Source of the DNA: Alphaproteobacteria bacterium
GTDB taxonomy: Bacteria; Pseudomonadota; Alphaproteobacteria; Thalassobaculales; Thalassobaculaceae
Assembly: GCA_024742605.1 (NCBI GenBank)
Contig: JANSYC010000002.1
Location: 71,238-135,237, forward strand
Length of the DNA: 64,000 bases
Reading direction: 5' to 3'
The notes under the pieces are model-generated. The model ran no database searches and had not been told where the DNA came from. It saw only the letters and a list, made by a program, of their open reading frames with translations. A program made the position numbers and the translations under genes. Shown in pieces: positions 50,631 through 64,000 of the stretch (positions are counted from its first letter, which is position 1; each line of letters opens with the position of its first letter).

Positions 50631-50699
50631 ATCAGTAGGATATCCCAATCGTTTTCGATATGGATTTTGACGCGAGACGCTCTCTAGAGGGATTTGACT

Positions 50700-52472
50700 A
50701 TGTCAGGACGTCGAACTGCGGCCAATCTGGCGCTATGGGCTGCGATTTTCGCCTTGATGACGGCCGATACCTCAAATGGTCGGGCGAATAGCGACGTTGT
50801 ATCGGATACGACCGTGGGCGCGCGGGCGGACACAAATGTGCCGGTGAAACCGGCGGCGGCCAACGCACCTCGCCCGGGCCTTGACAGCGCGGATCGTGGC
50901 ACCTGGGCCTCGTGGCTCGGCGCAACAGCCATGGCGGTCGGGGAGACCGGCCAGCAGGCGGCGAGCGCCGCATACTATTTGGGTGGCGAAGTCTTGGACT
51001 CCAGCCGCATCATCGGGCTCTCTACACTGCGCGGTTTCGGATTGATCGAAGGCCCTCCGGCTCTTGGCGCCGACGGCACCACGGAAGACGGAACCGTTAG
51101 CGCCTGGGTCGACCTGGGCCTGGGCGGCGGCCCAGCGAAATCCGATACCGGACAACCCGTCATACGCAAGACAACTGGCCTCGCCGACGGCCAAGCCCAG
51201 GCGGCGATGGGTGTCGCGCATGTCGATAGCGAAAAGGGTGGTTCCCGCGGAGCACCGCTCGTGGACACCCATTCCGGGGAGTCGACGAACGAATTGATCA
51301 GCCGGGTTTCCTCGACTTCGCAATCCTTAAATCCGGCCAGGCCGGCCGGGGGATCTGTTGCGGATCTCCCGTTGCCGGTCTCCTGCGAATGGTCATCCCT
51401 GTCGCAGTCGGCCACCCCGGGCCTGAGCGCCGATGACATCGGCACGCTTACGGGGTTGGGCCTGATGGATGAGAGCGCGCGGCGCCTGTCCGACGGAACC
51501 GTGTTCTTTCCGGTCGTAACCCAACGGCTTCTTCAAGTTCGGACGGCGGTCGCATGTGACGGCCAGGTCGCCAGCACCCGGCGTTTGGTCGGACACGTGA
51601 TCGCCAATCCGACCAGCAGCGGGCTGGTCCAGGCGGAACAGGACGGCCGGGTCGAAAAGGGCGCGTTCGGGTTCCCGGTGATCGGCCAGAAGGTGCAGCA
51701 GGGAGAACTTCTCGCCTATCTCAGTCCAATTCTGTCGACCAGCGAACGCGCGCAGCTCAACCGGGAAATCGAGACCCTCAGAGGCATGGTCGCCGCCAAG
51801 GAGTTGGAGATTGCGCGGACACGTGAGATGCCGCTGCTGCCATTTCGTGACGGCCGCATCCTGTCGTTGCGGCTTGAGCTGAACACGCTGAAATCCCAAC
51901 GCGACGCGCTGATCGAAGGCCTTGACGGACGCCAGCCTCTGGTCGCCTCGGTGTCTGGCGTCATCGTGGAGTCTCAGGTGCGGGTGGGGCAGGTGATCGA
52001 GGCCCGCCATGTACTCTGGGAAATCGCCGATGCTGACGACCTTTGGGTCGAAGCGGAGATGTTCGACGGCCAGCCACTGAATGTGGTCCCGGGTTCGACG
52101 GCGGTGACGTCGGGAGGATTGGAGATGGGCCTAAAGTTCATCGGCGCCGGGCTCTCGACAACGGAATCTCAGGCGTCTCCCGTGCAATTTCAGGTCACGT
52201 CGATTCCGGAAGGTGTCCGGATCGGCGAACGGGTTGTCGTCAATCTCCGCGAAGGCGGACTGCAGTCCGGGACCCTGATCCCCAAGAGCGCGATGCTCCG
52301 CCGGCCGAACGGCGAGATGGTCGTGTGGTCTTCGTTCGGCCCCGAACGCTTTGAAGCCCTGAAAGTCGACTGGAAGCCCGTCGATGGCAGCACGGTTCTG
52401 ATCGAAGCGGGTATTTCCCCGGGAATGCGGGTCGTGGTCGACGGCGCATCCCTCCTGTCCGAGGTGAGATGA
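50700..52472 (+). CDS. RND efflux periplasmic adaptor (HlyD/CusB-like) with long N-terminal extension
   Basis: The protein of about 590 residues has an N-terminal hydrophobic signal segment (about 8-30) and then roughly 200 residues I cannot assign. The C-terminal part is a normal membrane fusion protein: a lipoyl/barrel region, the coiled-coil hairpin around SERAQLNREIETLRGMVAAKELEIARTREM with QLRLELNTLKSQRDAL-type heptads, a beta-barrel (VLWEIADADDLWVEAEMFD) and a C-terminal membrane-proximal domain ending ISPGMRVVVDGASLLSEV. It is coupled (ATGA) to the His-rich accessory gene. It bridges the RND pump to an outer-membrane channel, which is not encoded nearby. Confidence 0.85.
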   Translation: MSGRRTAANLALWAAIFALMTADTSNGRANSDVVSDTTVGARADTNVPVKPAAANAPRPGLDSADRGTWASWLGATAMAVGETGQQAASAAYYLGGEVLDSSRIIGLSTLRGFGLIEGPPALGADGTTEDGTVSAWVDLGLGGGPAKSDTGQPVIRKTTGLADGQAQAAMGVAHVDSEKGGSRGAPLVDTHSGESTNELISRVSSTSQSLNPARPAGGSVADLPLPVSCEWSSLSQSATPGLSADDIGTLTGLGLMDESARRLSDGTVFFPVVTQRLLQVRTAVACDGQVASTRRLVGHVIANPTSSGLVQAEQDGRVEKGAFGFPVIGQKVQQGELLAYLSPILSTSERAQLNREIETLRGMVAAKELEIARTREMPLLPFRDGRILSLRLELNTLKSQRDALIEGLDGRQPLVASVSGVIVESQVRVGQVIEARHVLWEIADADDLWVEAEMFDGQPLNVVPGSTAVTSGGLEMGLKFIGAGLSTTESQASPVQFQVTSIPEGVRIGERVVVNLREGGLQSGTLIPKSAMLRRPNGEMVVWSSFGPERFEALKVDWKPVDGSTVLIEAGISPGMRVVVDGASLLSEVR

Positions 52473-53203
52473 AGATGATCCAGATGCTTGAGCGACAGAA
52501 CGGCGCCAAGACCGCCCGCCCGGGACGCTTGAAGATCGGAGCGTTGCTGGCATCGGCGCTGATCCTCGGCTGGACCGCGCCGGGTCTTGCCCATGAAGGC
52601 CACAACCATGGGGACGAGGTCGAGCGTCCGCCTGCGGATCTTCAGGATCTGAAACCGCGCGCCGTCGCCACCGGGGCCGCGTTCCAACTGGTTGGGATTC
52701 CGGTTTCGGGCGCGCTTGCGATCTTCATCGACAGTGTGGCCAGCAACACCCCGGTCACCGGAGCGTTTGTCGAACTGATGACCGCGGGCGACGCGACGCT
52801 TGTTGCCGAAGAAGTGGTGCCGGGCCTCTACATGGCGTCACCCTGGCCGCCTCTGGGCGTTTCGCCGGACCAACTGGTCGGTTCGGAGGTCATCACGACA
52901 ATCGTGGCGGAGGATGGTGACGATCTTCTGCTGGTCCGCCTCCCCGATGGGGTCGCCAACCCGACCGGTGCTGAGACCGCCGGGACCGGCGCCGAAGCCG
53001 CGGTCGGGACCAAGGTCGCCTCGATGGTCTCGAGCGACGCGGAAAGCTGGGGCGGCAGTGCCCTGCTCATCCTGGCGGGAAGTATCCTGTCCCTTGCCGG
53101 TGTCTTCGCGGGCCTCCGCAATCGCGGGGTCGGCCGGTGGATCGGGTTCGGGGCGATCGCGATGGGCGCCGTGATCGGAATGTCCTCCTCAGGTATCGTC
53201 TGA
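52469..53203 (+). CDS. His-rich, membrane-anchored accessory protein of the RND operon
   Basis: The 244-residue protein has a signal peptide (about 20-41) followed directly by A-H-E-G-H-N-H-G-D-E, a probable metal-binding segment, then a beta-rich periplasmic domain (about 50-150), and two C-terminal transmembrane helices (about 192-212 and 222-240). It begins at ATG 52469 inside the adaptor stop. A role in handing metal to the pump is plausible, but I do not recognise a family. Confidence 0.75.
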   Translation: MKMIQMLERQNGAKTARPGRLKIGALLASALILGWTAPGLAHEGHNHGDEVERPPADLQDLKPRAVATGAAFQLVGIPVSGALAIFIDSVASNTPVTGAFVELMTAGDATLVAEEVVPGLYMASPWPPLGVSPDQLVGSEVITTIVAEDGDDLLLVRLPDGVANPTGAETAGTGAEAAVGTKVASMVSSDAESWGGSALLILAGSILSLAGVFAGLRNRGVGRWIGFGAIAMGAVIGMSSSGIV

Positions 53204-53261
53204 CGGTTCTTCATCCGCTCTTGTGCGGTATGTGACCAATCATCCAGGAGCAGACCGTTAG

Positions 53262-56200
53262 ATGTTTTCGTATGTGGTCGATCAGAGCCTCCGCAACCGG
53301 CTTTTTGTCGTGGTCATCGCGCTTATCATGTTGGGGTACGGCGCGTTCACCCTGACCCGGATGCCGGTCGATGTGTTTCCGGACCTGACCCGACCCACCG
53401 TGACCCTCATCACCGAAGTCGGTGGCTTGTCGGCGGAAGAGGTCGAGGCACTCGTCACCTACCCGATCGAGACCGGCATGGTCGGCATGCCCGGGCTGGA
53501 ACGGGTCCGCAGCGTGTCCAGCCGAGGCCTGTCCATGGTCTATCTGGAGTTCGGCTGGGACACGGATGTCTACCAGGACCGCCAGTTCGTGGTCGAACGG
53601 ATGGAACAGGTCTCCGAGAGCCTGCCGGAGGACGTGGTTCCCTTCATGACACCGATGTCGTCCATCATGGGCGAGATCATGCTGATGGGGTTCACCGGCG
53701 ACGGAATCTCTCCGATGGCCCTGCGGGAACTCGTCGACTGGGTCGTGCGACCACGGATCATGGCGATTTCCGGCGTCGCCCAGGTGATCCCGATCGGCGG
53801 CGAAGTCCGACAACTCCGGGTCACGCCCGATCCGGAGCGAATGATGGCGCTGGGGATCACGGTGGATGATCTGACCGGCGCGCTCGAAAATTTCGGATTG
53901 AACACCGGCGGCGGGTTTATCGAGCAGGCGGGTCGCGAATACGTCATTCGAAATGTCGGCCCCGGCCACCGCCCCGAAGACGTGCGCGATCTGCGGATCG
54001 CCGATCGTGGCGGCATAGCGGTGCCTTTGAAGCAGATCGCCGATGTTGGCTACGCCGCCGCCACCAAACGCGGAGATGCCGGGTTCAACGGGCAATCGGC
54101 GGTCATCGTGTCGGTGATGAAGCAGCCCGGCGTGGACACACTCGCACTCGTCTCGGAAGTCAAAACGGCCATGGCCGCCCTGTCTTCGAGCTTCCCCGAC
54201 GGCGTCCAGGTTCACGAGCCGATTTACGATCAGAGCGATTTCATCTCGACCTCGGTCGACAATGTGGAGACCGTGCTGATCGAGGCCTCGATCGTGGTCA
54301 CCATCGTCCTGGCCGTGTTTCTGGTGAACGCCCGCACCACCCTGATCTCGCTGAGCGCGATCCCGGTTTCCGCCATGGTCGCAATCCTGGTGCTGCACGC
54401 CATGGGGCAGTCGATCAACACCATGACCTTGGGCGGGCTCGCGATTGCGATCGGGGAGCTAGTCGACGATGCGGTGGTGGGTGTCGAGAACGTGTTTCGC
54501 CGCCTGCGTCTCAACGCGGCCTCAAGCCGTCCCAGACCGGCGATGGAGGTGATCGCGGAGGCCTCGATCGAAGTCCGGTCCGGAATCATGATTGCAACAA
54601 TCATCATCGTGGTGGTTCTGGTTCCGCTCTACGCGCTCTCGGGCATCGAAGGCCGGATGTTCGCGCCGTTCGCGACCGCCTATATCATCGCGATCCTGGC
54701 GAGCCTGGTGACCGCCGTCATGCTGACCCCGGTCATGTGCTACTACCTGCTGCCGAACACCCCGCTGCTGCACAAGGGCGACGGCGCGGTGCTGAACTGG
54801 CTGAAAGGGATCAACCGGAAGATCGTCGCCTGGGCCCTTGGGCGAGCCAAGGCCGTGCTCGCGGTCTCCATCGTCGGCGCCTTCCTCATCGGTTCGACCG
54901 CCCTGCTCCTGCCTCGGGTCTTCATGCCGACCACGAACGAGGGCTCGATCGTGGTCCTGGTTCAAATGCCCGCCGGCACATCTCTGGGAGAGTCGACCCG
55001 GATCGGCCAGACGATCGAAAACGTCATCATGCAGGTGCCCGAAGTGTTGGCGGTCGGCCGCCGCAGTGGTCGGGCCGAGCTTGATGAGCATGCTGAGAAC
55101 GTCAATGTGAGTGAGATCAACGTCCGGCTGGATCGCAGCGGGCGCAGCAGCCAAACCGTGCGGGACGAGATCCGTGAACGTCTCAACCCCTTTCCGATTC
55201 GGGTGATCATGGACGAGCCGCTGTCGCACCGGATCGATCACATGATCTCCGGCGTTCGGGCCAAGATCGCGCTGAAGCTGTTCGGCGACGACCTGGACGT
55301 CCTTCAGACGATCGCGCAGGGCTTCGAAGGAAAACTCCGCGACATTCCCGGCATCGATGATGTCGGCGTCTCGACCCAGGCGAGGCTGCCGCAGATCTCG
55401 ATTTCGGTGGACGCGGAGCGGGCATCCGCCTATGGGATCGCGCCTTCCGAGGTACTGCAAACCATCCAGAACCTGACCCTGGGCACCAATGCTGCCGAGG
55501 TTTTCGAGGGGGAACGCCGCTTCGATCTGGTGGTGCGCATGAAGGACTCGGACCGGACCAGCGAGCGGCTGATGTCGCTGCTGATTTCCACGCCCCGCGG
55601 TCATGTGCCGCTGTCCACCTTTGCCGAAATCTCCGAGTCAGACGGCCCGAACAACATCAACCGGGAGAATATGCGCCGCCGCGTGGTCGTCCGTGCCAAT
55701 GCGTCGGGAGATGACATGAGCGAGGTGGTCGAGGCGATCAAACAGACCGTCGCCGAAACCAAGCTGCCCTCCGGGTATTTCGCGGTGTTGGACGGCACGT
55801 TCCGCGCCGAGGAAAGCGCATCGAAGGCCATTCTGATCCTGTCGATCGCGTCCCTGGCCATGATTTTCGTGGTGCTCTATTCACGCTACAAGCGGGCCAG
55901 TCTCTGCCTCATGATCATGGCGATCATTCCGATGGCGACGGTGGGCGGTATCGTCGGGCTGTGGGTGGCGGGTCTGCCGCTCTCGATAGCCGCGATGTTC
56001 GGCTTCGTGACCCTTGCGGGGATCACCGCGCGGAACGGGATCCTGAAGATCAGTCACTACATCAATCTGGTCCTGTACGAAGGGGAGCGGTTCAACGACG
56101 CCCTGATGATTCGGGGCAGCGAGGAACGCCTGGCCCCGGTTCTCATGACCAGCGTCTCGGCCGGCCTGGCCCTGATCCCGCTGCTGTTCGGCGGTGACGT

Positions 56201-56372
56201 CCCGGGTAAGGAGATCCTGCATCCAATCGCAGTGGTGATTTTCAGCGGACTGATCAGCGCACTGCTTCTGGACACTTTCCTGACGCCGGTCCTGTTCCGG
56301 CTTTTCGGAGAGAATGCATTGAAATACCTGCAGGGCATGGCCGACGCCAGAGCCTTGAAGGAAGCCTTTTAG
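53262..56372 (+). CDS. Heavy-metal RND efflux pump, CzcA/CusA-type
   Basis: The 1036-residue protein has the twelve-helix RND architecture with two large periplasmic loops: N-terminal helix FVVVIALIMLGYGAFTLTRMPVDVFPDL, the intramembrane GELVDDAVVGVENVF block, with charged proton-relay residues, and a C-terminal repeat with AMFGFVTLAGITARNGILKISHY. Early porter sequence (EEVEALVTYPIETGMVGMPGLERVRSVSSRGLSMVYLEF) is of the HME type, which exports Cu, Ag, Co, Zn or Cd. It lies 58 bases after the accessory gene. The metal cannot be told by reading alone. Confidence 0.95.
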   Translation: MFSYVVDQSLRNRLFVVVIALIMLGYGAFTLTRMPVDVFPDLTRPTVTLITEVGGLSAEEVEALVTYPIETGMVGMPGLERVRSVSSRGLSMVYLEFGWDTDVYQDRQFVVERMEQVSESLPEDVVPFMTPMSSIMGEIMLMGFTGDGISPMALRELVDWVVRPRIMAISGVAQVIPIGGEVRQLRVTPDPERMMALGITVDDLTGALENFGLNTGGGFIEQAGREYVIRNVGPGHRPEDVRDLRIADRGGIAVPLKQIADVGYAAATKRGDAGFNGQSAVIVSVMKQPGVDTLALVSEVKTAMAALSSSFPDGVQVHEPIYDQSDFISTSVDNVETVLIEASIVVTIVLAVFLVNARTTLISLSAIPVSAMVAILVLHAMGQSINTMTLGGLAIAIGELVDDAVVGVENVFRRLRLNAASSRPRPAMEVIAEASIEVRSGIMIATIIIVVVLVPLYALSGIEGRMFAPFATAYIIAILASLVTAVMLTPVMCYYLLPNTPLLHKGDGAVLNWLKGINRKIVAWALGRAKAVLAVSIVGAFLIGSTALLLPRVFMPTTNEGSIVVLVQMPAGTSLGESTRIGQTIENVIMQVPEVLAVGRRSGRAELDEHAENVNVSEINVRLDRSGRSSQTVRDEIRERLNPFPIRVIMDEPLSHRIDHMISGVRAKIALKLFGDDLDVLQTIAQGFEGKLRDIPGIDDVGVSTQARLPQISISVDAERASAYGIAPSEVLQTIQNLTLGTNAAEVFEGERRFDLVVRMKDSDRTSERLMSLLISTPRGHVPLSTFAEISESDGPNNINRENMRRRVVVRANASGDDMSEVVEAIKQTVAETKLPSGYFAVLDGTFRAEESASKAILILSIASLAMIFVVLYSRYKRASLCLMIMAIIPMATVGGIVGLWVAGLPLSIAAMFGFVTLAGITARNGILKISHYINLVLYEGERFNDALMIRGSEERLAPVLMTSVSAGLALIPLLFGGDVPGKEILHPIAVVIFSGLISALLLDTFLTPVLFRLFGENALKYLQGMADARALKEAF

Positions 56373-56416
56373 TTCTACACGACATGCCGGAGATCCGGCT
56401 TGAGAGGAGCTGTCCG

Positions 56417-56839
56417 ATGATTTCTTACGTCCCCCGCCTCGCCCGGGTGCTCACGGTCTGCATGGCCGTGGCCGGCGGTCTGGCAATGTCCATGCCCGCT
56501 CTGGCGCAAAGCTCGCATGAACACTCGCACGACGAAGGTCCCCATGGCGGCCAGATCGCAGAAGTCGGTCCCTATGATGCAGAGATCGTTCTCGAAGACG
56601 GGGAAATCCGAATCTACGTGATGACCCACGACGATCCGGCGGCTGCGGTCGCCGTCAGCGGCGGGGACGTCGTCGTGCTCACCGGCGGCGGCAGCAAAAA
56701 GATCACCCTCAGCCCCGATGGTGACTCACTGCTCGGCAAGCCCGATTTCGAGATCGAGGAAGACGCCAAGGCCGTGATTCGGGTCACAACCGCGGACGGC
56801 AAGACGCATGCCGGCAAGGCTCAGATCGAGACGGATTAA
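56417..56839 (+). CDS. Small secreted His-rich protein of the RND operon
   Basis: The 140-residue protein has a signal peptide (about 5-30) ending ALAQS, followed by H-E-H-S-H-D-E-G-P-H-G-G, a likely metal site, then a beta-rich domain of about 90 residues (IVLEDGEIRIYVMTHDDPAAAVAVSGGDVVVL). It resembles the N-terminal part of CzcB-type adaptors or CusF-like metal chaperones in role rather than in clear sequence. AGGAG lies seven bases ahead of ATG 56417. Confidence 0.75.
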   Translation: MISYVPRLARVLTVCMAVAGGLAMSMPALAQSSHEHSHDEGPHGGQIAEVGPYDAEIVLEDGEIRIYVMTHDDPAAAVAVSGGDVVVLTGGGSKKITLSPDGDSLLGKPDFEIEEDAKAVIRVTTADGKTHAGKAQIETD

Positions 56840-56877
56840 GGTGTCTCCCAAACCCGCAACGGCATAGAGTCCAAATC

Positions 56878-57669
56878 ATGGGATATGATATCGGACTCTA
56901 TCTGGCCAGCGTTCCACTGGAAACTGCGGTGCCGCTGTTCCTGGCCGTAGGCATCCTGGTTTCGATCCTCGGCTCGTGGGTGGTGAATTCGATATTCACC
57001 CCCTTTGAGCTTGAGGCGAACAATGGGGTTGGCGGCGCCAAATTTGCTTTTCTCGGAGAGGTTTACGCCGTCACGCTGGGTCTGGCGCTGATCGGCGCCT
57101 TCGATCATTACACCACCTCTCAGACCAATGCCCAGAAGGAGGCCGCCACCCTGGCCAGCCTGAAGGGAGCAGCAGAGGTCTACAATCTCCCGGAACAGGC
57201 TGCCGACCAGCGCGCCATGCACGACGCCGTGACGGCATATGCGCGGGCCGTCGTGGATCGGGAATGGGGGGTCATGAGCTACGGGATCGCCGATACCGAA
57301 GTCTCAATCCGATTGGGGGAAATCCGGGCTGCCTTTCTCGGCGCAGATCCTCTGACGGCAGGACAACAGGCGCTTCAACAAAACACTGTCGAATGGGTGC
57401 GTCAGCTCAGCGAATATCGCACCCTACGACTGACGACGGTTTCAAGGTCTCTGGTGGCTCTTGTCTGGATCGTCGTGATTGTCGGGACCCTAACCGCCAT
57501 CATATTTCCCTGGTTTTTCGGGACCTTCAACATCCTGGCCCAGGGAGCCATGTCCGCGCTCTTGGTGTCGTTCCTGATGCTGCATCTGCTCGTGATTCTA
57601 CAGCTCAGTTATCCGTTCGTCGGCGATGCGTCGATCAGTTCGGCCGCCTTCCTGGATGTGATGCGATAG
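56878..57669 (+). CDS. DUF4239-like (bestrophin-related) membrane protein
   Basis: The 263-residue protein has four probable transmembrane helices (about 15-38, 54-76, 190-215 and 222-245) with a soluble central part. The segment FAFLGEVYAVTLGLALIGAFDHYTTSQTNAQKEAATLASL matches the DUF4239 pattern of a conserved helix pair followed by an acidic, Ala-rich helix. Some family members may be ion channels. It lies 38 bases after the His-rich gene; whether it belongs with the metal operon or the mitofilin-like cluster is unclear. Confidence 0.7.
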   Translation: MGYDIGLYLASVPLETAVPLFLAVGILVSILGSWVVNSIFTPFELEANNGVGGAKFAFLGEVYAVTLGLALIGAFDHYTTSQTNAQKEAATLASLKGAAEVYNLPEQAADQRAMHDAVTAYARAVVDREWGVMSYGIADTEVSIRLGEIRAAFLGADPLTAGQQALQQNTVEWVRQLSEYRTLRLTTVSRSLVALVWIVVIVGTLTAIIFPWFFGTFNILAQGAMSALLVSFLMLHLLVILQLSYPFVGDASISSAAFLDVMR

Positions 57670-57682
57670 CGACTTTATGCTG

Positions 57683-58273
57683 TCATCCGCCGTCTCGGAT
57701 CAATTCGTAGACCATATGCGTGGTCAAGGTCTCACCGACCTCGATCTCCACACCGATCAGACCGTAATCGGCTCCGATATCGACCAGTCGCCAGTCGGAC
57801 GCGTCCAGCAAGGTGCGGGTCAACTCCAGTTCGGGGCGCGCCTTGGCCTCGGCCGCGAGCAGGACATTTCGCCACAAGGCCATCCGACGGTCCGTCTCGA
57901 TCTCACGCTCGAAGTCGAAGCTCAAGAGCAGATGACCCTGATTCACTTGGGAAATCTTGTAGCCTGCGAGGGAGAAACCAGCCTCGCGGCCGATCTCGGC
58001 CAATGGCTCGGGTCCCTCGATGGCCATACGCCGAATGGCTGAGGCCGCAAGCTGCATCCGATCCGGTCGATCCAGGGACTTCACGACGCCGAAGAACCAC
58101 TCGCTCACGGTTCGATCCAAATCGGCGAGAAACTCCGAGACGTCCGCGATCGCATCGCCGACAACACCCGCTTGAGCAGGCTTCGGTCCACTGACCGCAA
58201 GCATCGCCGTCACCAAGACCATCAAATAAGCGCTGCGCAGGCTGTTCCGGCGTCGCGAGTCGGAGACGATCAT
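57683..58273 (-). CDS. Secreted protein of unknown function
   Basis: The protein of about 196 residues has an N-terminal signal peptide (SRRRNSLRSAYLMVLVTAMLAVSGPKPAQAG) and then a mixed alpha/beta part with helices such as AIADVSEFLADLDRTVSEWFFGVVKSLDR. ATG 58273 is chosen, with ATG 58291 six codons upstream an alternative; neither has a strong ribosome-binding site. I do not recognise a family. It converges with the DUF4239-like gene, 13 bases between stops. Confidence 0.6.
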   Translation of the reverse strand: MIVSDSRRRNSLRSAYLMVLVTAMLAVSGPKPAQAGVVGDAIADVSEFLADLDRTVSEWFFGVVKSLDRPDRMQLAASAIRRMAIEGPEPLAEIGREAGFSLAGYKISQVNQGHLLLSFDFEREIETDRRMALWRNVLLAAEAKARPELELTRTLLDASDWRLVDIGADYGLIGVEIEVGETLTTHMVYELIRDGG

Positions 58274-58445
58274 GGGACCAGGGTTCTGCATGGGCAGACT
58301 AAACAGGAAATCTGGAAACTGGGCAACAGCCCGATGAATCCAAGGATTTACGGAACCGTGCGATCCCCGCATCGACAACCGTGTTTCACGAGCCACGCCG
58401 TTAGGTCATGATATCGCTCTTCTGGTCCAACCGGGTGAACTCGCC

Positions 58446-59093
58446 ATGGCAAACGTTCTTGTTGTCTCTACCAGCAAGGGGGGAACCGGAAAGACCACAC
58501 TCGGTGTCTCGCTCGCCGCCTATTGGCGGGATCAGGGCAAAAGGGTTTCGATCCTAGATACGGATCCGAATGAGGCAATGACCCGCTGGGCCGGGAAAAG
58601 CCAGACCGGGTTCCAGGGGATTGAGGTCCGGTCGAGTTCGAACGAGCACGATATCATCGAGAACGTGCAACAGCTCGGAGCGAATGCGGATCTGGTGGTT
58701 GTCGATACGGCCGGGTTCGGCAACCAGTCGATGATCTATGCGGTCGGGATCGCCGATCTGGTTCTGGTCCCCGTGATGGCGGATGAGGCCAGCCTGTTCG
58801 AGGCTGCCAAGATGAAACGCGTGATCGACAGCGCCAGTGCCCTGACGCGACGCGACATCAACTTCCGGACGGTTCTGAATCGGGTCAAGCGGACAACCAC
58901 CGTGGTGCGGCATACCGAGCGGAATCTGGAGCAGTTGGGCCTGAGACCGACCGCCACCCGCATCGGTGATCGGGTGATTTTCCAGGAGGCGTCATATCAC
59001 GGGGAAACCCCGCTCAGCCTGATGCCTGGCAACCGTGCGGCCCTGGAAATTCGAAATCTGGCACGGGAATTGGAACCCGAGCTGTTTATTTGA
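58446..59093 (+). CDS. Orphan ParA/MinD-type ATPase
   Basis: The 215-residue protein has the deviant Walker A loop KGGTGKTT at residues 11-18 with the signature Lys, the Walker A' VSILDTDPNEAMTRW, Walker B LVVVDTAGFGN and the ParA-fold C-terminus. There is no N-terminal DNA-binding domain and no ParB or MinE gene next to it, so it is an orphan partitioning-type ATPase. Such proteins position cargo such as chemoreceptors, carboxysomes or cell-surface complexes on nucleoid or membrane. It lies between the secreted protein gene and the mitofilin-like gene. Confidence 0.92.
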   Translation: MANVLVVSTSKGGTGKTTLGVSLAAYWRDQGKRVSILDTDPNEAMTRWAGKSQTGFQGIEVRSSSNEHDIIENVQQLGANADLVVVDTAGFGNQSMIYAVGIADLVLVPVMADEASLFEAAKMKRVIDSASALTRRDINFRTVLNRVKRTTTVVRHTERNLEQLGLRPTATRIGDRVIFQEASYHGETPLSLMPGNRAALEIRNLARELEPELFI

Positions 59094-59154
59094 AGACTTG
59101 GTGCGGCGACCATCTGGTGATCCCGCCATTCCCCGGGAGCACTCTTTCGGCATG

Positions 59155-59176
59155 AAAAAAGGGACCCGGTGGCCCC
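59155..59176 (-). terminator. Intrinsic terminator after the first mitofilin-like gene
   Basis: On the minus strand a stem GGGGCC-ACCG-GGTCCC with one wobble pair (59161-59176) is followed by six T (59155-59160). It is about 30 bases downstream of the stop at 59205 and ends the minus-strand cluster; converging ParA transcription meets it on the other side. Confidence 0.75.
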
Positions 59177-59204
59177 TTCTCTCCGATCAAACCGGTCACG
59201 GACC

Positions 59205-60428
59205 CTACTGGGCGCGGGCGACCGCCTCGATCATGTAGACGTCCAGATCGGCCACTGCCTCGGCAGCGAGGTCGCGTGACTGGACCGCGGCAATCCAGGA
59301 CTCGGTCTTCGCCTTCATCGCCTCCGGCAAAGCCTCGAGCTCCGCGATGGCCATGTCGAACGCACCGGCCCGGACCATTTCCTCGGCCCGCGCCATGATG
59401 CTCAAGGGCCCGTCACCATCCGGCACACCGTCCAGCCGCCACCGCAGGCGGATCGTAGCTGCCGTCAGGGAGGCCATGGTCTCGGAAATCGTGCGGGCGA
59501 TTTCACCGCCACCGGATTCTATGATCTGGGACGCAGCGACCACGTCCTGCGACACCTCGTCGAATGTGCGCTGCAAATCCTGATCGGTCGGAATACCGAT
59601 CTCAGCCCAGGGATCCAGAGCATAGACCGACTCCATGGCCGGGTCGTTTTCACCGACGATCGCCCGGAACAGATTGAGCTTGTCGGCGAACGGGCCACCG
59701 GAGTTTATCTCCTCACGCAGATCGTCGGCGACGATGAGAATGGCCGGGACTTTTACCGCACGGATCGAGGTATTCAGTGTCACCTGACCCTCGGACAACT
59801 GGGTCACGGTCGCGCTCAACTCCGCGACACTTCCGATCAGCGCCTTCTGATCGGCCTCCAGCTTCGCGACAGCGCTGCTTTTGCCGTCACCACCCCATAC
59901 CAGGGGCCCCCAGACCGGCGTGGTCACGGCGATGATGACCGCCAGGACACTTGCCAAAAGTGGCAATGTGCTACTGCCGCCACCGGTCGTCCCACTGCCG
60001 CCCGGTGGCGTCGAAAACTTCGTGGATGTGGTCGAGCCACTGTTCGCCGCAGGCGTCGATGGCGGTGTGGCTGTGGAAGAACTGGAGGTGCTTGAACCGC
60101 TCATGTTACGCCGTTTCGGTGGGGGTGGAGGTGCTGCATTGGCACCTAGGTTGGAAGAACTTGGAGAATCAAGCCGTGTGGAAGGTGGTACCGCAGCCGC
60201 AGCCGCGCTTTTTTTCGTCCCGGACTTGGAAGCAGCGGCAGCCTTCGGCGACCGCGCTTTTTTGGAAGCCGTCGAGGCGGTCGCAGCGGCTTTCGGTTTC
60301 GGCGCTACGACCTTGGCCGCGGGTTTCGCTGCCTTGGGTTTCCGAAGGGCAGGTTTCTTAGGTTCCGAAGTTGTTTCCGGTCCGACATTTCTAGCGCCGG
60401 AGCCGCCGTCACTGTCCGCGTCGCTCAC
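59205..60428 (-). CDS. Mitofilin (Mic60)-like membrane protein with histone-H1-like tail
   Basis: The 407-residue protein starts at GTG 60428 (GGGGG upstream). Residues 1-80 are Lys/Ala/Pro-rich like a histone-H1 tail, 80-153 are Ser/Thr/Gly/Pro low complexity, 155-175 form the single transmembrane helix, 185-220 a short coiled coil. The C-terminal 180 residues follow the mitofilin pattern: INSGGPFADKLNLFRAIVGENDPAM, then EIGIPTDQDLQRTF, and finally GAFDMAIAELEALPEAMKAKTESWIAAVQSRDLAAEAV. This is an inside-out orientation with the coiled coil and mitofilin domain in the periplasm, as for Mic60. Confidence 0.75.
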   Translation of the reverse strand: MSDADSDGGSGARNVGPETTSEPKKPALRKPKAAKPAAKVVAPKPKAAATASTASKKARSPKAAAASKSGTKKSAAAAAVPPSTRLDSPSSSNLGANAAPPPPPKRRNMSGSSTSSSSTATPPSTPAANSGSTTSTKFSTPPGGSGTTGGGSSTLPLLASVLAVIIAVTTPVWGPLVWGGDGKSSAVAKLEADQKALIGSVAELSATVTQLSEGQVTLNTSIRAVKVPAILIVADDLREEINSGGPFADKLNLFRAIVGENDPAMESVYALDPWAEIGIPTDQDLQRTFDEVSQDVVAASQIIESGGGEIARTISETMASLTAATIRLRWRLDGVPDGDGPLSIMARAEEMVRAGAFDMAIAELEALPEAMKAKTESWIAAVQSRDLAAEAVADLDVYMIEAVARAQ

Positions 60429-60571
60429 CGCTATCCCCCGTCAAAACTTACTTTGATCCGTCATAGCCTACACCAAATTGAACCGCCTGTATTGCGCCGC
60501 TTAACATGCCGACATCAAATCATCGCCTCGCATGCCAGCAAAACCGATACCGGGCGAGTCTTGAGTTAGTC

Positions 60572-61174
60572 TCAGTCCTTTTTTCCGGCGTATCGGTAGA
60601 ACTGAAGCACGACCAGCGCCAGCGCTGCGGACCAAAAGTTCAAGGTGTTCAGGGTGTAGGGAAGCAGGGTGATGAGATAGGTCGTGACCATTTGTCCGAT
60701 CAGAGCCGCGAAGACGATGCCGAACAGGCCGATGACGACTTCGATACCTCGAAGAAGCAGCAGGACCGACAGCAAACTTGCAATCCCCAAGGCCGCGAGA
60801 CAGAGTCCATAAACCATCCATCCCATCGGGAGATCGGCAAGGCTCAACTGCGCCCAGAGCGGTGCGTAGTCGTAGAGCGCGGGATCGCCGATCGTCGAAA
60901 GGTACACCCGCCACGGCAGGTCCCACGGCCCACCGGCTTCAACGATGGTGTTGATCTCGTAAGCGGGGCGCGCTTCGTTGGTGATGAAAACCCCGAAGCC
61001 GAGGAGGATTCCGAAGCCGGTCGACAACTGGGACAAGAGCGGGATGCGGTCGAAGAACGCCAGCGACGGCACCCGCCAAATCAGGCGTGACGCATACACC
61101 CCCAACAGGGGAATCAACAAGAGGGTCGCGCCGATCAGAAATCGTCCGGCCAAGTTGAGGAATACGTCCGTCAC
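60572..61174 (-). CDS. Five-helix membrane protein of unknown function
   Basis: The 200-residue protein has probable helices at about 10-28, 45-64, 117-140, 145-166 and 175-193, separated by a longer loop at 65-115 with YEINTIVEAGGPWDLPWRVYLSTIGDPALYDYAPLW. The start is GTG 61174. No family is recognised. It lies between the two mitofilin-like genes, 42 bases from the larger one, so it is likely a membrane partner of them. Confidence 0.7.
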   Translation of the reverse strand: MTDVFLNLAGRFLIGATLLLIPLLGVYASRLIWRVPSLAFFDRIPLLSQLSTGFGILLGFGVFITNEARPAYEINTIVEAGGPWDLPWRVYLSTIGDPALYDYAPLWAQLSLADLPMGWMVYGLCLAALGIASLLSVLLLLRGIEVVIGLFGIVFAALIGQMVTTYLITLLPYTLNTLNFWSAALALVVLQFYRYAGKKD

Positions 61175-61216
61175 ACCGTGCGCTGCCTTTGGGGCCTAAT
61201 CAGGGCCGCCGCCGCG

Positions 61217-62953
61217 TCAGTCCGGCTTCGCCGCCGCTCCGACGCCCGCTGCATCCCGACCGTAGACGACCGCCTCCAAACGCTGCATCGCCTGAGCAAC
61301 CTGATAGCGATCGCGCAATCCGACCAACCAGTCGTTCAACGCGCCCGATCGGCTGTCCGTGATCATCACCGAAGCTTCCGCCACCGCCAACTCCAGATCG
61401 CCGCGCTCCAACGCGCTGTCAATCGTATCGGCCGCCGCTTCGAGCCCCCCGCTCAGCGCCGGCTGCGGAGAGGATACGCCACCGACCAGCATTGAGAACC
61501 ATTGACCAATCTGCGCGCTCCAATTGGACGCCCGGCTGGCAATCGAGCTCGACTGGCTCGCTATCAAGCGCAGGTCTCTCCGAAGATCCTGGATCGAGTT
61601 CACACCCTTTGCCGAGACCTGAGTCAGCAGATCGAAAGCCGGTGAGGAGGTCGCAGCGTCGTTCAGGTTCTGTCTCGCAAAACTCAGTTCCTCGGGGAAA
61701 GGTGTGGAGTCATGTACCGCGCCCTGCAGTTGCAGAAGCGCGAGAACCGGCATGTTCTGCGACTGGAAGACCGAAACAAGCTGAGCCGTTCGCTCGTTGA
61801 CATCCAGCAGCGCCTTGAAATCGTTCGTCAGGGTCTCGACGCGCTGATCAATCGCAGCCGTTCGCTCCGTCAGGGCCGACTGAGCCTCCACCGCTTCCAC
61901 CATGCCGACCTCTATAGCATCCGAACGCTGTTCGAGGGCGGCGGCCATCTCCTGGGTCGCCCCAAGATCCGAGCTCAACGCGTCCTGGGCGGCCATCACC
62001 TCCGATTTCAACGCATCTATGGATGCCGCCAGGGACCCGGAGGCCGCCTGCAGTTCGCTGTCCAAGCGCATCACTTCCGAAGCCATATCGGCTTTCATCG
62101 CCTCAATCGCCGCCTGCTGCGCCGGGAGCTGCTCCGTCACATCTCCGGTCGCGCTCGACAAGGATTGGAGCCGCGCATCCACATCGTCTAGTTTTGCGGC
62201 CATCTCATCCCGCAGCAGCAACTCGCGCGCCGCCTCTTGAGTCAGGCCATCCGCCGCGACCACCCGTTCCAGGGCCGCCGTGAGGCGGTCGATCCGCGCG
62301 TCCAGCCCCTCATAGGTGACCTCCAGCCGGTCGGTGTCATATCCGGTGACCATATTGACCACCCGCTCGCTCAACTGGGGCACATACTCCAGAAGCAGTT
62401 GACGCGCTTCCGACCGGTAACTGGGCGCACCGAGGGAAACCACCGCAGCCGCCAAGGCGATCAGTGCAAAAATAAGGGTCCAAAACGTCGCGAACCAGCT
62501 TCCGCGCCGTTTCGCCGGCGGCGTCGCCCCCCCGGCTCCCACACCGCCGCCGGTCGCGGCACCGCCTCCGGAGCCGCCCGCACTTCGTCCGTCCGCCTTG
62601 AGTCCGGACCCACCGATGCCCGGGGCCGGCGATGCCGACGACAGGCTGGGTTTCGGCTCTGCCGACGCAGATGCGGCGGATGCCGCAGATGACGTTCCGG
62701 TCGGAGATGGGGATTTCGCCGTCTCCGAACTCATGGATACGCCTCCTGTGGTCTTGGCGTCCGTCGATGATTTCGGAACTTCGGCACTCATGTCTTCACC
62801 CGGCAGTGTCTGTGGCTGTGGCTCTGGCTTCGTGGTGTCGGGACCAGCCTGTGAAGACTCCTCGCCAACGCGAGACGCGCTCCCGGGGTACCGGTTCGCC
62901 AGTCGTTCCAGATCTGCTGGATCCACATTTGGAAGCCGTGGTCGGTTCGCCAT
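61217..62953 (-). CDS. Large mitofilin (Mic60)-like coiled-coil membrane protein
   Basis: The protein of about 578 residues has 150 residues of Ser/Thr/Ala/Gly/Pro-rich low complexity, a helix at about 153-174, a long periplasmic coiled coil (about 213-398, heptads such as DEMAAKLDDVDARLQSLSS) and the mitofilin C-terminal domain (LLQLQGAVHDSTPFPEELSFARQNLND, GVNSIQDLRRDL, then SALERGDLELAVAEASVMITDSRSGALNDWLVGLRDRYQVAQAMQRLEAVV). ATG 62953 is preferred over ATG 62959 because the GAGGG site would be too close to the earlier one. It looks more like a full Mic60 than its paralogue at 59205. Confidence 0.8.
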   Translation of the reverse strand: MANRPRLPNVDPADLERLANRYPGSASRVGEESSQAGPDTTKPEPQPQTLPGEDMSAEVPKSSTDAKTTGGVSMSSETAKSPSPTGTSSAASAASASAEPKPSLSSASPAPGIGGSGLKADGRSAGGSGGGAATGGGVGAGGATPPAKRRGSWFATFWTLIFALIALAAAVVSLGAPSYRSEARQLLLEYVPQLSERVVNMVTGYDTDRLEVTYEGLDARIDRLTAALERVVAADGLTQEAARELLLRDEMAAKLDDVDARLQSLSSATGDVTEQLPAQQAAIEAMKADMASEVMRLDSELQAASGSLAASIDALKSEVMAAQDALSSDLGATQEMAAALEQRSDAIEVGMVEAVEAQSALTERTAAIDQRVETLTNDFKALLDVNERTAQLVSVFQSQNMPVLALLQLQGAVHDSTPFPEELSFARQNLNDAATSSPAFDLLTQVSAKGVNSIQDLRRDLRLIASQSSSIASRASNWSAQIGQWFSMLVGGVSSPQPALSGGLEAAADTIDSALERGDLELAVAEASVMITDSRSGALNDWLVGLRDRYQVAQAMQRLEAVVYGRDAAGVGAAAKPD

Positions 62954-63009
62954 AGACATACCCTCGACGCTTCTGCCCAGGCAGCTTGACCGGAATGGTT
63001 AGGCCAACC

Positions 63010-63447
63010 CTAGTCCGGGACGGAATTGAACCAACGACGCGACCGGATAACCCACCCGGCACGTCGCGGACGAATACCTTCTTCGACCATCAACGCCTTG
63101 ACGCGTCGGCGGGCCTCATCCGGTGTGATCTTGCCGCGGGCCTTCGCTCGATACATCTCAGCCGCCTGCTCGAACTCCCGCCGGGACAACCGGCGACCGG
63201 AGTTCTGGTTGGCCTGCATGGTCAAAATCTCGCGCGTCGCGTCGTCGGCAACCCTCTGAAGCACGAGCTTCTGATCGTTCACGGTAGCCAACATGGATCC
63301 GTTCGCTTCGTCCAGGCTGAGATGGAACCTCGCCATACCGTCCTGAAGGAGACGGCGTTCATCCTCAACCCGAATGAAGCCTCCATTCATGCCTTCAATG
63401 CGAACCATGTCCGCAAATCGACGCCGTGTTTCCGGATCTGCTGTCAT
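63010..63447 (-). CDS. Basic helical protein of unknown function
   Basis: The 145-residue protein is mostly helical and increasingly basic towards the C-terminus (EARRRVKALMVEEGIRPRRAGWVIRSRRWF). A middle stretch DATREILTMQANQNSGRRLSRREFEQAAEMYRAKARGKITPDEARRRV resembles a helix pair with a short loop. No signal or transmembrane segment is present. I do not recognise a family. It lies 56 bases before the large mitofilin-like gene and probably shares its transcript. Confidence 0.6.
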   Translation of the reverse strand: MTADPETRRRFADMVRIEGMNGGFIRVEDERRLLQDGMARFHLSLDEANGSMLATVNDQKLVLQRVADDATREILTMQANQNSGRRLSRREFEQAAEMYRAKARGKITPDEARRRVKALMVEEGIRPRRAGWVIRSRRWFNSVPD

Positions 63448-63615
63448 CTATGAAATATATCCATTTTGCGCGTGTCCCAGTTCGGGACGACTTAACGATG
63501 AACGGCGCCAAATCTGCAACTCGAGCATGGGTACCGCCGGTACACGCTCAAACATCTGATCGGCTCAAGGGCAATGCCGATGAGTGCCAGACATTCTCAT
63601 CGTTCTTGCCGGCAA

Positions 63616-63987
63616 TCAACCAGACGTCGGAGTCTCGATGATCGGCATCGGCTGTGTCATGAACCAGTGAGCACCAATCCCGCCCGCAACCGCGCCCGCC
63701 AAGGTCGCCATGCCGCCGCCGCCCAGCAGATCAATGACCAGCGCGCCCCCCAGGGACCCGATGGCGATGACGACGAGATCGTTGGTGGACACCATCACCA
63801 CCTTCGAACCGTCGGACATCTGAGACGCCGCGTCCTGCGCGGCATCAACCATTTCATTCATCTTGGAGCGCATCTGATCGACCATGGTGCTCAGCGATTC
63901 AATCTGCTCCGGCGTCAGAATCGTTCCGCCGCCGGACGAGGAATCGCTGGTCACGGCAGGCGTTTCAACGGTTACCGATTGCGCCAT
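63616..63987 (-). CDS. Small membrane protein with glycine-zipper helices
   Basis: The 123-residue protein has a Ser/Gly-rich start, an amphipathic helix (about 25-60: TPEQIESLSTMVDQMRSKMNEMVDAAQDAAS), and two hydrophobic segments (about 71-88 and 91-108) very rich in Gly and Ala, of the glycine-zipper type found in helices that pack tightly or oligomerise in membranes. ATG 63987 has GGCGG upstream. It is the first visible gene of the mitofilin-like run; more genes may lie to the right. Confidence 0.6.
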   Translation of the reverse strand: MAQSVTVETPAVTSDSSSGGGTILTPEQIESLSTMVDQMRSKMNEMVDAAQDAASQMSDGSKVVMVSTNDLVVIAIGSLGGALVIDLLGGGGMATLAGAVAGGIGAHWFMTQPMPIIETPTSG

Positions 63988-64000
63988 AGCACCGCCTGTA

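Follow-up and report, generated by a model that had tools for sequence, protein, structure and literature searches.

A conserved alphaproteobacterial gene cluster links two divergent mitofilin-family proteins, often with a ParA-type ATPase, to MlaE-type lipid transport genes

Mic60 (mitofilin) is regarded as the bacterial legacy underlying mitochondrial cristae and has been viewed as a single gene with a single role; the open-access literature handles its alphaproteobacterial form as a conserved protein. The usual, though not defining, place of the alphaproteobacterial Mic60 gene is beside heme-synthesis genes. Partner proteins of ParA/MinD ATPases are reported to bind the ATPase via charged, disordered N-termini (PMC10241942). 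Here we describe a stretch of 64,000 nucleotides (the window) from contig JANSYC010000002.1 of the alphaproteobacterial assembly GCA_024742605.1 (C56:71238-135237; genome 4.47 Mb), in which two mitofilin-family proteins, called MicA and MicB below, are encoded in one cluster with a ParA-type ATPase. The relatives of the host are the Thalassobaculaceae (Thalassobaculum litoreum, T. fulvum and strain BAL199), and an open reading frame check found in the window all the genes that a preliminary description, made from the letters alone, had listed. The components are of known kinds; together they appear to form a second mitofilin set beyond the ordinary Mic60, and we found no description of a mitofilin-ParA-MlaE cluster in the open-access literature, a scope that excludes most subscription papers and preprints.

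MicB (59205..60428, minus strand) matches the Pfam family Mitofilin (PF09731) at 1.6e-10, with 41 bits against a cut-off of 27.4. Its N-terminal tail is basic and disordered (17 Lys/Arg and 5 Asp/Glu in the first 80 residues) and is followed by one predicted transmembrane (TM) helix (154-172), a short coiled coil and a mitofilin domain delimited by Pfam and hhalign (residues about 218-405; 59214..59777, minus strand). MicA (61217..62953, minus strand) has an N-tail motif, a low-complexity linker, one predicted TM helix, likewise at about 154-172 and with a Lys/Arg-rich flank ahead of it, a coiled coil and a C-terminal mitofilin domain (residues about 385-575; 61235..61807, minus strand, by domain-only hhalign). 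The start kept in relatives is 62953, rather than 62959. MicA itself has no Pfam match, while its orthologues in G403 (46.5 bits) and G334 (31.1 bits) exceed the Mitofilin cut-off. Full-length MicA aligns with the canonical Mic60 of the same family at an hhalign probability of 99.7 (E 2e-25), and full-length MicB at 99.0. To exclude coiled-coil effects, the C-terminal domains were also compared alone, and reached 99.6 (E 5e-23) for MicA and 99.4 for MicB against canonical Mic60, and 99.3 against each other; reversed-sequence controls gave 0.5-0.7 (0.7 for MicA against Mic60 reversed). Two proteins of the mitofilin plan had been proposed at 61217-62953 and 59205-60428, and the match is significant for both: MicB by Pfam, and MicA by profile-profile comparison together with its orthologues.

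In the AlphaFold2 (AF2) model of MicA, long helices at 241-331 and 338-416 form a predicted coiled coil. The helices of 422-572 mostly have a predicted local distance difference test (pLDDT) score of about 90, although confidence is low around 475-500, and a short N-terminal helix lies on the conserved motif; overall confidence is modest (62.7). A fold search with this model returned no significant match, and because the solved MIC60 helical bundle (9qwr) came at rank 50 without significance, we treat the fold evidence as neutral.

The ordinary Mic60 of the host is encoded on another contig (C23:44356-45666; L005:7336-9762, minus strand) in an 809-codon frame whose N-terminal part is HemD (PF02602). 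This in-frame fusion fits the earlier remark that alphaproteobacterial Mic60 is normally single and beside heme genes. The canonical Mic60 of G334 is likewise fused to HemD; in G366, the C-terminus of a HemD frame is Mic60-like by the family profile. The cluster, by comparison, contains no heme gene and so lies away from the usual mitofilin place. An ordinary Mic60 is present in most genomes of our set and in most Thalassobaculaceae that lack the cluster. Of the 14 MicA-type entries in a mitofilin-domain tree, which come from six families, 13 fall on one side (support 92/94), the MicB proteins of the family form one clade (100/98) and its Mic60 proteins another (96/92); the deeper branching order carries no resolution. 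The tree rules out a recent duplication of the host's own Mic60 as the origin of MicA and MicB. Since MicA sits in a separate clade spanning several families, it is an old paralogue rather than a recent copy, and MicB is an old paralogue as well. Neither Mic10 nor Mic19 was named by any Pfam scan of the cluster proteins, and no search was aimed at either.

The set is conserved in some marine and soil bacteria akin to the mitochondrial ancestor. Nine genomes from five genera of Thalassobaculaceae share an identical order and orientation: DUF6524, mem353, glycine zipper, basic145, MicA, TM200, MicB, ParA, an exported protein and a bestrophin-like protein (some contigs end inside the set, and the last gene is seen in four genomes). 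Because the same order recurs in nine genomes of five genera, the arrangement is not due to chance. Other Thalassobaculaceae, among them a draft from the same genus, lack the set. Within the family, conservation is highest in ParA (70-76% identity) and basic145 (51-82%) and lowest in MicA and MicB. Among 386 alphaproteobacterial genomes, basic145 occurs in ten, with one further marginal match, across eight families; a search with basic145 only found eight genomes outside Thalassobaculaceae, and a scan of named genomes with MicA alone gave no match. Carriers with enough contig hold TM200, DUF6524, Mic-like, mem353, glycine-zipper, bestrophin-like or ParA genes close by. Outside Thalassobaculaceae the same partners recur, as partial sets in shuffled order, in about eight alphaproteobacterial families. 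The loci of G334 and G403 contain ParA, two or three mitofilin proteins, TM200, DUF6524 and MlaA; in G366 the set is divided between two contigs; and G208 has two mitofilin proteins, TM200, mem353 and DUF6524 without ParA. The preliminary description had proposed to survey whether the mitofilin genes occur together with ParA and membrane genes; such co-occurrence is conserved across the nine family genomes and their relatives. In G334, a third mitofilin-family protein (MicC; L121:8569-9618) adjoins basic145.

ParA (58446..59093, plus strand; 215 residues) is encoded opposite to the mitofilin run, as had been described for an orphan ParA, and next to MicB in the family clusters. It has a Walker A motif, SKGGTGKTT, matches Pfam AAA_31/CbiA and lacks a DNA-binding N-terminal domain. 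Identity is 46-49% to the ParA proteins of G334, G403, G366 and G300, and all further alphaproteobacterial ParA proteins sampled stay at 36% or below; by sequence identity, the cluster ParA is a distinct subfamily. This subfamily (at least 46% identity) was found in 6 of the 386 genomes, five of which also carry basic145 (hypergeometric P 2e-8, kinship between genomes not corrected; P about 1e-7 when collapsed to families, with 139 families as a lower bound and kinship between families uncorrected). A mitofilin-type gene adjoins ParA in all six, of the MicA type outside Thalassobaculaceae, and G422 adds the order ParA-MicA-basic145-MicB-TM200. ParA is a common but non-obligatory member of the cluster. 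In G085, a more divergent ParA overlaps a further mitofilin-family gene (L156:4058-6417), and because of this pair the association of ParA with mitofilins may extend past this cluster type.

The deviant Walker A, the ParA fold and the missing N-terminal DNA-binding domain are traits of orphan positioning ATPases, and the neighboring MicA-type or MicB gene in the six subfamily genomes and G422 would encode the partner. A candidate contact lies in MicA. Its predicted cytosolic N-tail begins with MANRPRLPNVDPADLERLANRYPGS (62879..62953, minus strand), near invariant in the nine family genomes, where MANRPxLPNVDPExLxKLAxQYPGS is the conserved spot of the otherwise least-conserved MicA. Versions of the motif occur in G403 (MARKHTIPGVDEAALSELARQFP) and G300 (MAGSKKLPGVDKEALEGLAKQFP), so that ParA-bearing genomes of three families have it. 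We consider this motif a candidate docking peptide for ParA or for basic145. In G208, which has no cluster ParA, MicA begins like a signal peptide and has no cytosolic tail. It is plausible that ParA places the set on the nucleoid.

A second recurring neighbor is a lipid transporter. The family clusters of L022, L023 and L027 adjoin a 139-residue PH-like protein, the protein p370 and a one-chain ATP-binding cassette (ABC) ATPase/MlaE permease (ABC::MlaE), beyond which lies a paralogue of basic145 with a fused SnoaL-like domain. L025 shows this block too, with the PH-like match absent. Elsewhere, ABC::MlaE lies beside ParA-MicA in G366 (L154), together with p370 and the PH-like protein, and in G300 (L152), there alone and at a contig edge. 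In G071 (L123), ABC::MlaE and p370 accompany basic145-TM200-DUF6524, and in G085 ABC::MlaE adjoins a mitofilin gene and p370. A gene for MlaA, a lipoprotein of the outer membrane, is found within the loci of G334, G403, G085 and G366. In G403, the PH-like protein is fused to mem353 (L122:17650-19341), a hint of joint action. A search of 72,556 plasmid records with basic145 and with ABC::MlaE gave, for either query, a match to pAB510b of Azospirillum sp. B510 only. This plasmid holds the most contiguous of the homologous clusters: basic145 (AZL_RS21575), TM200 (RS21570), two DUF6524 proteins, p370 (RS21555), ABC::MlaE (RS33575), a mitofilin (RS21545) and MlaA (RS33570). The RS21545 protein aligns with MicA at an hhalign probability of 98.2 (reversed 0.4), and its 26.9 Pfam bits fall just under the cut-off.

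The transporter is not a standard Mla system. An MlaE permease, an ABC ATPase and MlaA are present in the clusters of relatives, outside the host window, and no recognizable MCE-domain subunit accompanies them. We ruled out p370 as an MCE/MlaD protein (hhalign probability 0.2 against the MCE profile); the MCE matches (PF02470) of the host lie solely elsewhere in its genome, and ordinary MlaD genes occur in these genomes. Because an MCE/MlaD subunit is missing, we do not file the system as Mla. The 139-residue protein was rejected as a bacterial PH domain and is called only PH-like because the Pfam hint is weak (one of five members, E 0.27).

Taken together, these data suggest a conserved accessory envelope system in which a second, divergent mitofilin pair would bridge the inner and outer membranes for MlaE-type lipid traffic and would be placed by ParA where ParA is present, a reading to which we assign a probability of roughly 0.45. 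Mitofilin homology, the conserved cluster and the linkage to ParA and to MlaE/MlaA are read from the genes themselves; topology, bridging, lipid transport and its direction, ParA binding and positioning are predicted from them. MicA and MicB would be anchored in the inner membrane, the N-tail on the cytosolic side and the coiled coil and/or mitofilin domain in the periplasm. With TM200 and other membrane proteins they may form an assembly reaching toward the outer membrane, and at such sites this assembly, together with ABC::MlaE, a membrane-anchored periplasmic p370 and MlaA, could move lipid between the membranes. ParA, where present, would bind the cytosolic tails (the MicA motif and/or the basic MicB tail), tethered by MicA and/or MicB while the periplasmic portions of these proteins form a bridge toward the outer membrane; it would space or partition the assembly as ParA/MinD ATPases do with other cargos. 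That mitofilin coiled coils take the place of the MCE tunnel of Mla, in a ParA-positioned, mitofilin-scaffolded lipid conduit, is possible but on the unlikely side. We are similarly tentative about such a conduit being a bacterial precedent of contact sites, with bridging and lipid transfer in one machine.

Several observations weigh against this reading. ParA is missing from some clusters (the cores of Azospirillum sp. B510, G208 and G071 have no linked or cluster-type ParA), and the MicA of G366 has no N-tail motif though ParA is present. The MlaE half of the host lies on a separate contig (C91, L114:8886-13051), and the lipid link therefore rests on relatives. Since p370 is not an MCE protein, the transporter would be without the usual Mla substrate tunnel. 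Finally, MlaA and MlaE are widespread families, and ordinary MlaD genes exist elsewhere.

Membrane shaping and positioning had been the first functional proposal for this locus. In that alternative, MicA and MicB act as a second MICOS-like shaper that bends the inner membrane and makes or holds invaginations or intracytoplasmic membrane, placed by ParA, with lipid supply by ABC/MlaA or with those genes incidental. Homology and co-occurrence agree with it. Membrane bending and the support of intracytoplasmic membranes are known from alphaproteobacterial members of the mitofilin family (PMC12136173, PMC12631773), and two divergent mitofilin proteins that replace Mic60 in Euglenozoa still remodel membranes (PMC12631773). 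However, most of these genomes already encode an ordinary Mic60, and Mla-type genes adjoin the mitofilins too often to look incidental. With an MlaE-type ABC transporter and MlaA among the conserved members, function is better approached through lipid traffic between membranes than through bending alone, and we regard shaping as the chief role as unlikely.

A further alternative would detach the ATPase: MicA and MicB could be structural or regulatory parts of an envelope transport or stress system, with ParA a genetic neighbor or acting on something else, such as DNA or another cargo. The clusters named above that keep the mitofilin and/or TM200-basic145 core without ParA would agree with this, as would its opposite strand in the window. 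Yet ParA adjoins a MicA-type gene in all six subfamily genomes of the class sample and in G422, it is well conserved where the mitofilins diverge, and G208, a genome without the cluster ParA, has a MicA without a cytosolic tail; we find this account somewhat more doubtful still. A mobile or defense-type island is very improbable, given that its patchy distribution and lower guanine-plus-cytosine (GC) content (0.60-0.62 against about 0.65) stand against an order kept in nine species and ordinary chromosomal flanking genes; comparison with the PADLOC and PHROG families gave nothing stronger than weak coiled-coil and P-loop similarity, so that no family in either collection supports it.

The mitofilin family here has at least two further old bacterial members that are genetically tied to a lipid ABC transporter, to MlaA and often to ParA. 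If the favored reading holds, in which the mitofilin pair serves lipid traffic between membranes, the long-standing question whether mitofilins first acted in inter-membrane lipid exchange becomes testable in culturable bacteria, and a membrane contact site would join the list of ParA cargos.

The remaining members of the cluster are less readily classified. The protein described as DUF4239-like is a Bestrophin-like membrane protein (PF14023, formerly DUF4239; Pfam 2e-39) encoded at 56878..57669 on the plus strand; it holds the same cluster-adjacent place in G034, G026 and G030 and, outside the family, in G366 and G101. Next to it lies a small, amphipathic exported protein (57683..58273, minus strand; open frame to 58396) with the signal-peptide start MIVSDSRRRN...AQA, kept beside ParA in family genomes and with weak relatives adjoining the clusters of G403 and G300. 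TM200 (60572..61174, minus strand) is a polytopic membrane protein for which the Pfam scan of cluster proteins gave no match and which regularly accompanies basic145; it is kept in the family genomes and in G334, G403, G422, G366, G208, G085, G071 and Azospirillum B510. Its reported five helices are apparent by eye (about five), though simple hydropathy called just three. The most conserved marker, basic145 (63010..63447, minus strand), is soluble, all-helical in its AF2 model (pLDDT 89) and has an isoelectric point of 10.8, in agreement with the basic helical protein first noted. A fold search found no PDB match below E 0.6; a weak calbindin match at most suggests an EF-hand-like layout, and a fold assignment on that basis was rejected (E at least 0.6). 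The basic145 paralogue fused to a SnoaL/CaMKII-association-like domain occurs in all cluster-bearing Thalassobaculaceae genomes, adjoining ABC::MlaE where the contig permits (L114:8886-9842, L022:14156-15067, L025:5428-6318). A glycine-zipper gene is present as described, across Thalassobaculaceae clusters too, but in the host it crosses the window edge: the exported protein (63616..64000 and onward, minus strand) has 167 codons and a signal-peptide start near 64050 (L004:9854-10357). The cluster extends beyond that edge by two genes: one for mem353, a membrane protein with a signal peptide, and one for a DUF6524 protein.

The lower GC content spans window positions 56001-64000, and about 0.65 holds for most of the remaining window. 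Directly ahead of the cluster lies a resistance-nodulation-division (RND) efflux operon (50694-56839; CzcA-like by eye). Because an RND gene of the same type recurs near the clusters of relatives (G034, G030, G334 and G085), this operon may be more than a bystander.

Compared with known systems, the cluster ParA resembles those of McdAB and of PpfA/ParC of chemotaxis clusters in being a single ParA with a Walker A motif and no ParB, encoded beside a putative charged-tail partner; it differs in that the cargo proposed here would be an inner-membrane mitofilin assembly. With Mla (MlaFEDB-MlaC-MlaA), the clusters of relatives share an MlaE-family permease with an ABC ATPase, and MlaA, whereas here ATPase and permease form one chain, p370 stands in place of MCE/MlaD, and mitofilins and a PH-like protein are part of the cluster. 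Euglenozoan Mic34 and Mic40 are likewise a divergent mitofilin pair, as far from Mic60 as from each other, but they replace Mic60 and have no TM helices, whereas MicA and MicB coexist with Mic60 and have them (PMC12631773). The likeness to Mic60/mitofilin itself (PF09731), in its alphaproteobacterial form (COG4223-type, beside hemD) and its mitochondrial form, lies in a single TM helix near the N-terminus and a mitofilin domain at the C-terminus of both proteins, and in MicA also in the long coiled coil. In contrast to alphaproteobacterial Mic60, MicA and MicB are paired divergent paralogues, additional to the ordinary protein and encoded away from heme genes, with a conserved, predicted cytosolic N-tail motif in MicA and with linked ParA and MlaE/MlaA.

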